This document shows positions 11,042-41,144 of a stretch of 64,000 bases of DNA, piece after piece. Source of the DNA: Erythrobacter sp. Alg231-14 (GTDB taxonomy: Bacteria; Pseudomonadota; Alphaproteobacteria; Sphingomonadales; Sphingomonadaceae); contig NZ_LT702999.1 of the NCBI RefSeq assembly GCF_900149685.1, positions 2,666,001-2,730,000 of the forward strand, read 5' to 3'. Under the pieces are notes generated by a model. That model was given only the letters and a program-made list of their open reading frames with translations. It had not been told where the DNA came from and made no database searches. The translations under genes and the position numbers were made by a program. Each line of letters opens with the position of its first letter. Within the stretch, counting starts at the first letter, position 1.

Positions 11042-11244
11042 AGCTGTGTGTTTCGCCGATGGGTTTGTCAGCAAAGAGCAGCAGGGGAACCGCTCAATCA
11101 GGGGGAATGCCGTAACAATCCATCGAAATGCGACCCTAAGGGCAAGCCTGAAAACGATAACCGGATGGGTCGCGGGCTATCGAAAAAAGGCGTGACCGGA
11201 GGCACTAGGAGGAACGGCCCCCGGCCACGCCAAGTATGCACCCG

Positions 11245-11655
11245 TCAGGCAGCGGGTGCACAAGCTGATGCGGCGCAAGCGCTTGGGGCGCAGGCCGAAG
11301 CTTCACAAGCAGAGGCAGCGCAAGCCGAAGCGGCGCATGCGGATGCAGCACAAGCCGATGCAGCGCACGATGCGGCAGAGGCAGACGCTTCACACGCTGC
11401 TGCGGCGCACGCTTTGGCTGCGCATGCGGCGGCTGCACATGCAGCTGCGGCGCAGGCGGCTTCGCGTTGAGCGCGCGCTTGGCGACGGGCTTCGCGATTG
11501 GCGCGACGTTCTGCTGAACTGGTGTCGATGGAGCGCGGTGCGGAATAACCGCTTGGACCGCATGGTGCGTCTGCCAATGCCGGCGCGCCTGCTGTTGCAG
11601 CCGCCAGTCCACCGGCAACCATCATCATCTTCGCAAGGTTCATAGTAGTAGCCAT
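11245..11655 (-). CDS. Secreted cysteine/alanine pentad-repeat protein, unknown function
   Basis: A 136-residue protein. Residues 1-29 form a signal peptide (hydrophobic stretch, cleavage expected after ALA-DA). An Arg-rich linker follows (about residues 49-65), then a C-terminal half of alternating Cys every five residues: blocks of AAAAC, AAKAC, AASAC, EASAC and APSAC. I count 13 Cys in the array, with one irregular 9-residue spacing. No enzyme motif is visible. Start at ATG 11655 is supported by GGAAGGA eight bases upstream. It lies downstream of a YHS-domain gene, and a metal-binding or thiol role is possible. I do not recognise the family. Confidence 0.7.
   Translation of the reverse strand: MATTMNLAKMMMVAGGLAAATAGAPALADAPCGPSGYSAPRSIDTSSAERRANREARRQARAQREAACAAAACAAAACAAKACAAAACEASASAASCAASACAASACAASACAASACEASACAPSACAASACAPAA
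11248..11458 (-). repeat. 15-bp tandem repeat tract inside the cysteine-repeat gene
   Basis: The DNA consists of variant 15-bp units of GCN-rich codons plus one TGT or TGC per unit, encoding the Cys pentads. It makes long open frames in several other frames and on the other strand, which should not be taken as genes. Such tracts are prone to unit gain and loss. Confidence 0.75.
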
Positions 11656-11722
11656 TTTGAATTTCCTTCCAGAGTGTAATTCTAGTGTCGTATTTGAGGG
11701 GATCGGGTTGTTGTGATCGGGT

Positions 11723-11798
11723 ATTGGCGTCCCAGAAAATCAGACCGGCGCATCAGGGGGGTCAGGGGAGTTGCCGGCCAAAATGCCGGGACGCCAAT
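11723..11798 (-). repeat. Hairpin element 2, related to the element at 12332-12420
   Basis: Terminal arms ATTGGCGTCCC (11723-11733) and GGGACGCCAAT (11788-11798) are perfectly complementary over 11 bp and enclose 54 bases. The interior 11750-11777 aligns with 12343-12376 of the element upstream of the YHS gene. On the minus strand both share CCCCTGAC-N-CCCC followed by CTGA and TGC. There is no T run, so it is not a simple terminator. It lies between the stop of the YHS gene and the start of the Cys-repeat gene. Confidence 0.6.
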
Positions 11799-11808
11799 GG
11801 GGTAAAGC

Positions 11809-12300
11809 TTAATCGCCGAACCGTTTGCCATCGGGCACATTAGCCCAAGCGGGATCGGATTTTGCGATGAAGCCATCAACGTCGCCAAGCCAGGTTTCTT
11901 GGACGTTGCGATTGAAGTTCAAATACAACTTGCCGCCGTGGATTTTATAAAGCGTCGGATCACCCGGTGCGAGCGAGCCGCGGCTCATCGCCCATGCGCA
12001 GTGGCCGCCATATTGTGGGGCGTAGCGATCCGGGTTCTCTTCAAACAAATCGGCGTTTGCTTGGCTGGAAAAGTGGAATTGGGCACCATCATGTTCGACC
12101 ATGAAACGGGCATTGCCCAAAACGGGTGTACCGTTGCCTTGGAAATAGCTGACTGAATCGTAGCCAGAAAGGGCGACCGTGCTGCCTTCGACACCAACAA
12201 ACACGCCACCATCGGCATGCGCAGGTGTGGTCAATGCAATTGGTCCTGCAACCGTAGCGCCGAACGCAGCAGCCGCGAGCATAAGGAATTTAAGTTTCAT
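11809..12300 (-). CDS. Exported YHS-domain protein
   Basis: A 163-residue protein with a cleavable signal peptide (residues 1-29, ending AHA). The rest is a YHS-type domain: SGYDSVSYFQGNGTPVLGNARF, then FHFSSQANADLFEENPDRYAPQYGGHCAWAMSRG, with one conserved Cys. YHS domains are linked to metal handling, but this branch has no assigned activity that I know. Start ATG 12300 follows AGGAGA. A second, lipid-anchored relative lies at 14515-15069. The gene is preceded by hairpin element 1 and followed by element 2 and the Cys-repeat gene. Confidence 0.85.
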   Translation of the reverse strand: MKLKFLMLAAAAFGATVAGPIALTTPAHADGGVFVGVEGSTVALSGYDSVSYFQGNGTPVLGNARFMVEHDGAQFHFSSQANADLFEENPDRYAPQYGGHCAWAMSRGSLAPGDPTLYKIHGGKLYLNFNRNVQETWLGDVDGFIAKSDPAWANVPDGKRFGD

Positions 12301-12331
12301 CGGGGTTCTCCTAAATTTCGTCGTGCTGCGA

Positions 12332-12420
12332 CCACTTGGCTGGCATTCAGGATGGGGCGTCAGGGGTAAGAACCGGATAAGGGGGTTACCGGTCCGGGGG
12401 TCCTGAGAGCCGCCAAGTGG
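12332..12420 (-). repeat. Hairpin element 1 in the 5' leader of the YHS gene
   Basis: Arms CCACTTGGC (12332-12340) and GCCAAGTGG (12412-12420) are perfectly complementary. Inside, TCAGGA (12347-12352) pairs with TCCTGA (12401-12406), and a GGACCGG/CCGGTTC pairing closes an inner loop. On the minus strand this lies 31 bases upstream of the start of the YHS gene, so it would be in its mRNA leader. The C-rich interior is shared with the element at 11723-11798. It could be a structured RNA or a small dispersed repeat; the sequence does not decide. Confidence 0.6.
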
Positions 12421-12691
12421 CCGCGCACATCAAGCAGTTCGCCCGGTCACGCAATTTGGTGACAGGCAACCCAAAAAAAATTCAAAAAAGTTTGCAGAAC
12501 GTCCGAAATCGCTCCGACTGAGAGGGAGATTTTCGGTGCCGAAACGCACGAACACTCGACACGATTGTCGCATTGCGTCAGGATAAATATGCCCGTGGGA
12601 CAACGGGTTTTACAGGCGGTGTGTCGTAGGATGCATACAGCCGGATTGGCGTAAAGCTCGCCCGAAACATACGATACCAAAAGGGGTGCGC

Positions 12692-14514: not shown

Positions 14515-15069
14515 TTAATCTTGGTAATGCTCGCTTGCATCATGTGTTGGGTAATTGGTGTCACCGCTGGCGATGAAGCCTGGGATGTCTTTTTGCCAAT
14601 TGCCTTGAACGCTTTCGTTGAAGTTCAAGTAGAGCGTGCCGTCGACGATCTCGTAAACTTCTGGATCACCTGGTGCCAACGCGTCATTGGCGCCGATGGC
14701 CCATGCGCAATACCCGCCATAAGCAGGGGCATATTTGGCTGGCTCTTCAATGAAAGCTTGGGCGTTTGCTTCGCTGGCAAACCGGTAATCAAAACCTTCG
14801 TAACGCACGGTGAATTCTTCGGCGCCAACAACGGGAACGCCGTCATCGGTGAAGTAGCTGACAACGTCGTAACCAGAAACGGCCAACGTGTCGGCTTTCG
14901 CTTTGCGATAGATTGGGCCAACCGGTTCACCACCGAGATCGGCAAACAATGCTGTTTCGGTTGCTTCGGCTACCATGCTGTCGCCTTCAGGTGCAGCTTC
15001 GGTACCGCAAGCAGCAAGAGTTGCCATCAAAGCGATGGCGGTCATGGGGGCAAAAATTGATTTCTTCAT
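14515..15069 (-). CDS. YHS-domain lipoprotein
   Basis: A 184-residue lipoprotein: signal peptide with lipobox LAAC (about residues 16-19), a short acidic linker, then a YHS-type domain like that of the protein at 11809-12300. It shows VSGYDVVSYFTDDGVPVVGAEEF, FASEANAQAFIEEPAKYAPAYGGYCAWA, and LYLNFNESVQGNW. The open frame runs to 15261, but ATG 15069 has a perfect AGGAGG upstream and gives the lipoprotein signal. The membrane-anchored and soluble forms together suggest a periplasmic role. Confidence 0.87.
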   Translation of the reverse strand: MKKSIFAPMTAIALMATLAACGTEAAPEGDSMVAEATETALFADLGGEPVGPIYRKAKADTLAVSGYDVVSYFTDDGVPVVGAEEFTVRYEGFDYRFASEANAQAFIEEPAKYAPAYGGYCAWAIGANDALAPGDPEVYEIVDGTLYLNFNESVQGNWQKDIPGFIASGDTNYPTHDASEHYQD

Positions 15070-15406
15070 GGGGTAGTCCTCCTTAAAAACTGATAGTCCC
15101 GACTGGCTGCCTATGGCCGTATCGCCGGTAACATTGGGCAATTCGCGCGGTGCGAATGAATGGTTACACCCAATTTCACAAATTCGGAATGGAAACGATT
15201 TTGTGCGCAATTTCCTCCCCGGCTTGCGCTGCGCAGAATAATAGGCAAAGACTGTCGCCATGGCTTATCGCACAACACTCCTTCTACGACTTATGCGCCC
15301 TTGGGCGGTCTAGGGTTCTGCGCGAGAGTATAGCGGGCCCCATTCGTTCAAGGGTTTCGAAACGCTTCACTTCTCACAAGTTATTTTAAGAGCAAGAGCC
15401 AGTTCC
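15070..15406. other. Intergenic region between YHS lipoprotein and leuA
   Basis: A 337-base spacer that must hold divergent promoters for the YHS lipoprotein and leuA. Apart from the leucine-rich leader peptide at 15260-15313 and the AGGAGG of the YHS gene, I see no further gene. The longer open frame across it on the plus strand (15150-15389) has no protein-like composition. Confidence 0.5.
15260..15313 (+). CDS. leuA leader peptide
   Basis: A 17-codon frame reading M A Y R T T L L L R L M R P W A V, then TAG, 93 bases upstream of leuA. The run CTC CTT CTA CGA CTT gives four Leu codons within five, as expected of a leucine-responsive leader. CCCTTG at 15298-15303 could pair with CAAGGG at 15349-15354, but I see no terminator with a T run before leuA, so the mechanism is open. 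Its role is inferred. Confidence 0.65.
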   Translation: MAYRTTLLLRLMRPWAV

Positions 15407-40830: not shown

Positions 40831-41144
40831 ACATCCCTATTCCCCGTGAAATACGATGCGCATGACGCATCACATTCCGCCGTATCGGTAAGGTTTGGGA
40901 TTTCTGTTTGAGCGATTTTTGGGTCATCGGAACACCTTCGTGTTCCTTATATGTTCTCACCCCTCAATCACCAAATGCAAATTGTGCAATGAAATGGGAA
41001 CCCATGCGCGGATGAAACATTATCACAGCACGACCGGGCCCCTCTGGCGAGCAATCCTGCTCGTGATGTCGGACGTAACCTGCGGCGAATGATGCCGATG
41101 TTATTTATGGGGGGCGCGCGGCGCTCTCCGTAAGGGAGTACAGT
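40831..41144. other. Divergent intergenic region between dnaE2 and a lipoprotein gene
   Basis: A 314-base spacer holding the LexA box at 40942-40956 and a Shine-Dalgarno GTAAGGGAG before ATG 41145. I see no further gene. Another partial half-site GAAC lies at 40930, so the LexA region may be more than one box. Confidence 0.5.
40942..40956. promoter_or_regulatory. LexA box upstream of dnaE2
   Basis: GTTC-N7-GTTC (40942-40945 and 40953-40956), the alphaproteobacterial direct-repeat LexA site. The spacer and flanks nearly match the box upstream of imuA at 44766-44780, including TGTTCC at its left edge. Confidence 0.85.

Follow-up and report, generated by a model that had tools for sequence, protein, structure and literature searches.

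Covarying hairpins with C-rich loops at a YHS/Cys-repeat locus of Erythrobacter and their retention in genomes without the protein genes

In Erythrobacter sp. Alg231-14, the gene for a secreted YHS-domain protein has one hairpin in its leader and a second one in the gap before the following gene, which encodes a Cys-repeat protein. A preliminary description had left two explanations for this arrangement, a shared regulatory RNA element or a small dispersed repeat with inverted ends. This raises the question which of the two applies and whether such an RNA would serve the two genes only. We analyzed the locus within a 64,000-nt stretch of contig NZ_LT702999.1 (positions 2,666,001 to 2,730,000), hereafter referred to as the window, and compared it with the genomes of relatives.

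Two hairpins with a common loop motif

The elements of the locus are all located on the - strand and follow each other in the order promoter, leader hairpin, YHS gene, gap hairpin, Cys-repeat gene, and 3′ module, with these window coordinates:

12438..12464, - strand, ECF-sigma-like promoter TGTCACC-N16-CGAA (pattern match G000:C1:2678438-2678464)
12321..12430, - strand, leader hairpin, model R2 (E 4.1e-19, own training row), containing the previously described 12332-12420
12354..12366, - strand, loop motif CCCCTGACGCCCC of the leader hairpin (pattern search; predicted open)
11809..12300, - strand, YHS-domain secreted protein gene, YHS_seleno_dom subfamily (PF04945, E 1.9e-9; NF041384, E 3.4e-40)
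11719..11802, - strand, gap hairpin between the genes, model R1 (E 2.8e-9, own training row), containing the previously described 11723-11798
11756..11768, - strand, loop motif CCCCTGACCCCCC of the gap hairpin (pattern search; predicted open)
11245..11655, - strand, Cys-repeat protein gene, 136 aa with 14 Cys (open reading frame)
11182..11262, - strand, 3′ module, model R3 (E 2.5e-18, own training row): stop-codon hairpin, terminator hairpin, and T run
11205..11213, - strand, terminator loop TCCTCCTAG, anti-Shine-Dalgarno-like (sequence, relatives, predicted openness)

Both hairpins were found on the - strand at the positions described before, one in the leader of the YHS gene and one between the two genes, and the sequence confirmed their perfect terminal stems of 9 bp (leader) and 11 bp (gap), whereby the leader stem extends outward beyond its described end to about 12430. 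Folding of 12332-12420 yielded -38.5 kcal/mol (shuffles -22.5, z -5.6) and that of 11723-11798 yielded -35.3 kcal/mol (shuffles -22.3, z -5.0), and in both cases 0 of 200 shuffles were as good. The shared interior motif CCCCTGAC-N-CCCC has two copies in the genome, one in each hairpin loop: the pattern CCCCTGACNCCCC matched the 3.14-Mb genome twice, both times in these loops, and the reversed control pattern gave 0 matches. The motif is predicted to be open, with a mean unpaired probability of 0.83 in the leader and 0.91 in the gap hairpin. When CTGA was required 0-4 bases further on, the leader copy alone remained in the Alg231-14 genome, because in the gap hairpin the last C of CCCC doubles as the C of CTGA; this extended pattern matched 3 of 199 family genomes, the two besides Alg231-14 both in other contexts. 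The suggested relatedness of the two hairpins thus holds for the loop motif but not for the stems, whose sequences differ. With the loop motif alone in common, they are not two copies of one repeat. No Rfam 15 family scored above its gathering score at the locus, and in the whole window a tRNA and terC alone did so, both elsewhere. The terC RNA (RF03067, 56.2 bits; 41026-41081, + strand) belongs to a known cis-regulatory RNA family.

The locus is accompanied in the window by ilvC, a DUF4329 gene, and a gene for an FMN-dependent dehydrogenase. For the Cys-repeat protein, which has a Cys every few residues, no Pfam family was found above cut-off, and its weak likeness to the CefA RiPP family NF038108 (NCBIfam; 14.6 bits) is below the cut-off of 30; possibly, it is a metal-binding secreted peptide. 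A YHS relative at E 1e-40 or better was detected in 41 of 114 genomes of the genus, whereby 11 of the 41 matches gave no locus in that search and three of these had loci already (L014-L016). The named relatives are Erythrobacter, including E. longus DSM 6997 and Erythrobacter sp. NAP1. We compared the leaders and gene gaps of 33 loci, 29 by script and four separately (L049, L051-L053); a fixed 250-base stretch was used for L014, L016, L048, and L057, and L012 is truncated at a contig end.

The covariance search revealed strong compensatory changes in both hairpins among the Erythrobacter relatives. In the gap hairpin (17 sequences), double changes occur in 11 of 14 pairs, and 95.0% of the cells are standard pairs; its covariation score was reached by 0 of 500 shuffles and collapsed in slid controls. 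The loop reads C[CT]CTGACCCC in 17 of 17 sequences. For the leader hairpin, double changes were found in 22 of 29 pairs of the 30-row alignment A5, which was fitted to its model; one of the rows is the antisense strand of L136, and the other 29 are sense. Its 5′ arm AUGUGCGCGGCCA is nearly constant and the 3′ arm follows, and small hairpins with C-rich loops lie inside. CCCTGA is present in 18 of the 33 leaders and in 18 of the 33 gaps (including L051, where it is not the hairpin motif), and 14 loci have it in both. An upstream ORF in the leader (AUG UGC GCG GCC, MCAA) was considered and set aside, as L054 and L053 have a stop at its codon 2; the codon-2 change is matched on the other arm in L054 and unmatched in L053, which is an imperfect case.

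The loci matched by the models include their own training rows, 17 for R1, 10 for R2, and 18 for R3. R1 matched 22 of the 114 genus genomes, 18 of them strongly (E 1e-7 or better), and all 18 strong matches lie in the gap before the Cys-repeat gene; 17 of these are training rows, with genome G320 as the sole new one. Among 397 family genomes, R1 matched 12, strongly only in five genomes of the Erythrobacter genus. R2 matched 31 of the 114 genus genomes and six of the 397 family genomes, namely five of the Erythrobacter genus and, weakly, G198 (E 3.7e-4). The seven weak R1 matches outside the genus comprise two hairpins without the motif (L097, L101), two coding-like sequences (L099, L102), two strong hairpins with other C-rich loops (L098, L100), and L103, which contains CCCCTGAC but has a different fold. 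L098 (G178) and L100 (G341) are from other genera and carry long C-rich loops; L100 lies 30 bases before a gene for a secreted EF-hand-like protein, whose ribosome-binding site likewise has CACCCC before the ATG.

The gap hairpin is absent in G317, G323, and G324 (loci L045, L043, and L042), which are closely related to each other. In these genomes, a separate TGTAACC-N16-CGAA promoter precedes two hairpins, the second with a CCCUGACCCCCC loop (L277, L278, L279); these have no clear gene of their own, and in G323 an ORF begins 84 bases on. For other loci without the gap hairpin, e.g., L011, L049, and L055, no separate motif-hairpin copy was found among the R1 matches. Further look-alikes are a CCCCTGACCCCC hairpin directly before a distant YHS gene in G217 (L029) and a CCCCCTGACCC hairpin before another ORF in G306 (L127), both with CCCCTGACCCC-type loops and without a promoter pattern within the 200 bases before the hairpin. 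Such motif hairpins elsewhere, together with the perfect stems, would be in line with a small dispersed repeat. However, the look-alikes occur one per genome and have unrelated stems, the loop motif is found twice in the Alg231-14 genome and both times at the locus, and strong R1 matches are confined to the YHS/Cys-repeat locus, so that scatter is restricted to single weaker look-alikes in five genomes. We thus regard the repeat explanation as highly improbable. The suggestion of a shared regulatory RNA element gains support instead, since both hairpins covary, hold their transcript position, and keep a C-rich loop.

The 3′ module and the putative promoter

At the end of the transcript there is a third module, which the preliminary description did not include. 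It consists of a hairpin at the stop codon and a terminator-like hairpin that exposes CCUCCUA in its loop (UUCCUCCUAG). In an alignment of 18 sequences, 11 of 20 pairs show double changes and 98.6% of the cells pair. CCTCC lies downstream of 26 of the 29 Cys-repeat genes read (exceptions L015, L051, L056), and in L041 and L046 the stop codon is shifted upstream and the stop-codon hairpin is nevertheless present. According to a crude scan, one of 11 terminator-like hairpins of the window has a CCTCC loop, which is that of the 3′ module. R3 matched 36 of the 114 genus genomes (35 strongly) and 19 of 377 family genomes, where strong matches were restricted to five of the Erythrobacter genus; among 78 named loci there were 18 strong matches, all Erythrobacter, and one weak. 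Two of the 14 weak family matches are terminators with CCTCC loops from other genera (L242 in G102, L248 in G061), and the promoter pattern is absent at both of these loci. Likeness of the 3′ module to Rfam families is below threshold, with 20.4 of 80 bits for Pxr and 14.0 of 65.3 bits for CcsR1 (RF02791; E 0.32). In view of the CCTCC terminators and C-rich-loop hairpins that were weakly matched in other genera, C-rich loops could in part be a habit of the family.

In the window, the leader hairpin begins 8 bases past the promoter, and TG[AT][CA]AC[CT]-N16-CGAA precedes the leader in 28 of 33 loci. Across the genome, the loose pattern matched 41 times and a reversed control 29 times, so that a match is suggestive but not diagnostic alone. 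The operon promoter GTCACC-N16-CGAA differs by one base from the Caulobacter sigF form GTAACC-N16-CGAA, as given in the part of PMC3511200 considered here. GTAACC-N16-CGAA is the promoter form of the Caulobacter sigF regulon with its DUF2282/bufferin operons, for which the consulted sections of PMC3511200 and PMC12452194 describe no RNA element. In the Alg231-14 genome, TGTAACC-N16-CGAA also occurs at G000:C1:1474839 (L076) before a DUF2282 (bufferin-type) gene and a DoxX gene, as in the Caulobacter regulon. Moreover, the window contains a second, lipoprotein-like YHS gene (14515-15075, - strand) with TGTAACC-N16-CGAA, the Caulobacter sigF form, in front of it (15142-15168, - strand).

Genomes that keep the RNA modules without the genes

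The 35 genomes with a strong 3′ module comprise 26 with the YHS gene, one that lacks the YHS gene only, and eight that lack both genes. In the one without YHS, G320, promoter, leader, gap hairpin, Cys-repeat gene, and 3′ module are kept. The eight genomes without either gene between promoter and module are G202, G218, G221, G259, G281, G286, G295, and G297. In G218, G221 (whose promoter reads TGTCACT), and G297 the module follows almost directly after the promoter, which corresponds to a bare RNA of about 80-100 nt, and in the other five a leader hairpin lies in between; it is divergent and not found by R2 in G259, and the R2 match in G281 is weak (E 0.003). Neither these eight genomes nor G320 are in the training set of any model. 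Seven of the eight assemblies are 99-100% complete in 1 to 5 contigs, and G281 is 70% complete with the locus on one contig; in each of the eight, ilvB is on the contig of the locus at a distance of 2 to 4 kb.

For a tree of 29 genomes, we used the DNA of ilvB together with the stretch that follows it (3,090 columns); 15 of its 26 inner branches are well supported, and G306 is missing from it because it gave no ilvB match. On this tree, gene presence changes six times, and for the label "both genes" at least four changes are forced by well-supported branches. G218 groups with G274 (support 100/100) and G295 with G325 (100/99), both of which have both genes, and G221 and G297 group with two gene-bearing genomes (100/100). 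Loss is likelier than gain, because distant branches have the gene order, the leader, and the gap hairpin in common; gain by recombination is possible. TGTGCGC, as read by eye, is common to the leader start and the 3′ module, so that the genes were likely lost by deletion between short repeats, and no adaptive value needs to be assumed for the repeated loss. Such repeat-mediated deletion could strip the genes repeatedly and leave relics.

Relics of this kind are part of a purely cis-acting reading, which is the main rival explanation. In this view, protection of the mRNA end or tuning of YHS translation falls to the 5′ hairpin, the ratio of the two proteins is determined by the gap hairpin, and the 3′ hairpin is a terminator and nothing else. 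This would fit the location of the hairpins, which occupy both ends of the transcript and the gap between the genes, and also G320, where the gap hairpin stands right before the Cys-repeat gene despite the loss of YHS and thus may serve that gene. Neither the 5′ nor the gap hairpin would need a fixed loop for such tasks, yet the loops are the fixed part. Furthermore, pairing is maintained in the genomes without coding sequences, where leader hairpins are kept with no gene to serve: standard pairs fill 158 of the 159 base-pair cells of the eight modules, 9 of 20 pairs show double changes, and UCCUCC is present in every loop. Between G221 and G297, differences are seen at 4 of 40 paired versus 14 of 43 unpaired sites (p 0.016), whereby all four differences at paired sites keep the pairing (0.029 by simulation), and 19 of 84 module sites differ versus 42 of 97 in the DNA after the module. 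A similar comparison of G295 with the gene-bearing G325 gave 20 of 83 versus 41 of 78 sites. The pair G218 and G274 shows little contrast (5 of 84 module sites versus 10 of 97 in adjoining DNA), which is in favor of the cis-acting reading. Overall, we consider this reading unlikely. On this comparative evidence, the RNA probably does more than act in cis on the YHS and Cys-repeat genes, as species with neither gene still have promoter, leader hairpin, and CCUCCUA module.

It could also be that the YHS/Cys-repeat mRNA is controlled through its C-rich loops, either by an RNA-binding protein that recognizes them or by Rho loading there. C tracts are indeed one-sided in the 33 leaders, with 103 CCCC versus 3 GGGG (overlaps not counted), compared to 15 CCCC and 23 GGGG in 4,658 nt of control leaders from the window (crude gene set; overlaps counted), and in both genes the spacer between ribosome-binding site and start codon often contains ACCCC. 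However, covarying stems are not required for Rho, and in the bare RNAs of G218, G221, and G297 the CCCC hairpins are missing and the CCUCC loop is still present. To our knowledge, no RNA-binding protein is known for the loop motif. This explanation seems improbable. The structures, the conserved loops, the association with the promoter, and the retention of the RNA without genes emerge from comparison of the genomes, and hairpins and promoter that outlast both genes suggest that the RNA itself does a job.

A candidate dual-function RNA

We propose that a single RNA arises from the locus, driven by an ECF sigma factor that is probably a sigF-like metal-stress one; this RNA would be the mRNA for the YHS protein and the secreted Cys-repeat protein and a regulatory RNA at once. 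It would display CCCCUGA..CCCC loops in the leader and between the genes and CCUCCUA in the terminator, and through these it may base-pair in trans with other mRNAs, at their G-rich leaders or Shine-Dalgarno sequences. Where both genes are present, the mRNA would release the 3′ module as an sRNA of about 80 nt; where they are absent, the module would be transcribed directly. Expression, processing, pairing, targets, and direction of regulation are what we infer here. On balance, we hold it to be probable, if by no wide measure, that this is a stress-sigma-controlled dual-function RNA, also occurring as a stand-alone sRNA, whose C-rich loops pair with G-rich or ribosome-binding sites of other mRNAs. 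The dual-function reading is based on the covariation in all three modules, on loops that stay fixed while the stems change, on the eight genomes that keep promoter and 3′ module with nearly intact pairing but without genes, on the six changes of gene presence on the tree, on the lower divergence of paired sites between G221 and G297, on the stop-codon hairpin of L041 and L046 being kept despite the upstream stop, and on the hairpins of G320 being kept without YHS. Against it count the possible origin of the gene-free loci as deletion relics, the low contrast between G218 and G274, the C-rich loops among the weak matches in other genera, and the presence of CCCTGA in 18 of 33 leaders, so that some gene-bearing loci are without the motif.

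A further-reaching proposition is that the locus is primarily a trans-acting metal-stress sRNA with the protein genes as dispensable cargo. Accordingly, the mRNA would several times have become a stand-alone sRNA of ~80 to 320 nt, with promoter, hairpins, and C-rich seed loops under selection, and the clade without the gap hairpin would have its CCCCUGACCCCC hairpin behind an own sigF-type promoter elsewhere. The C-rich-loop hairpins elsewhere in the family temper the uniqueness of the locus and make this proposition slightly less likely, and we regard it as plausible at somewhat below an even chance.

SgrS/SgrT is an example of a dual-function RNA. For the candidate RNA, the view of the loops as seeds follows the analogy with GsrN and CcsR. 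In Caulobacter, GsrN is a stress-sigma-controlled RNA in which the C-rich loop of a hairpin is the part conserved best, and this loop pairs with G-rich mRNA leaders, according to the part of PMC5869019 considered. An exposed C-rich loop on a hairpin is likewise predicted for the YHS/Cys-repeat locus. Unlike GsrN, which the same part presents as a stand-alone gene near EcfG genes, the RNA is here an mRNA or a gene-free remnant with a sigF-like promoter; for Erythrobacter litoralis, no apparent gsrN-like gene is reported there. The CcsR1-4 RNAs of Rhodobacter sphaeroides (RF02791) are similar in being stress RNAs with a C-rich CCUCC-type motif that derive from the 3′ UTR of a small-protein mRNA (PMC8625941, in the sections considered). 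They differ in the motif, which is CCUCCUCCC instead of CCUCCUA, as well as in host gene and promoter type, and the CcsR1 score is far below cut-off. As with the mRNA-3′-end sRNAs and dual-function RNAs covered in the consulted part of PMC9438474, there would be a protein and an RNA output from one transcript and a 3′ end as sRNA source, but here the coding part is missing in several Erythrobacter species with promoter and RNA still in place. The excerpts of the literature on Erythrobacter or Sphingomonad RNAs that we consulted contained nothing on a YHS/Cys-repeat RNA.

The origin of new sRNAs is an open question, whereby mRNA 3′ ends are often named as a source. Erythrobacter species seem to display stages at one conserved place, namely the full mRNA, the YHS-less mRNA, leader plus terminator, and the bare sRNA. 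If the RNA acts in trans, they would provide a natural series for testing the transition from mRNA to sRNA, and the RNA would constitute an RNA arm of a metal-stress sigma regulon in Sphingomonadaceae.
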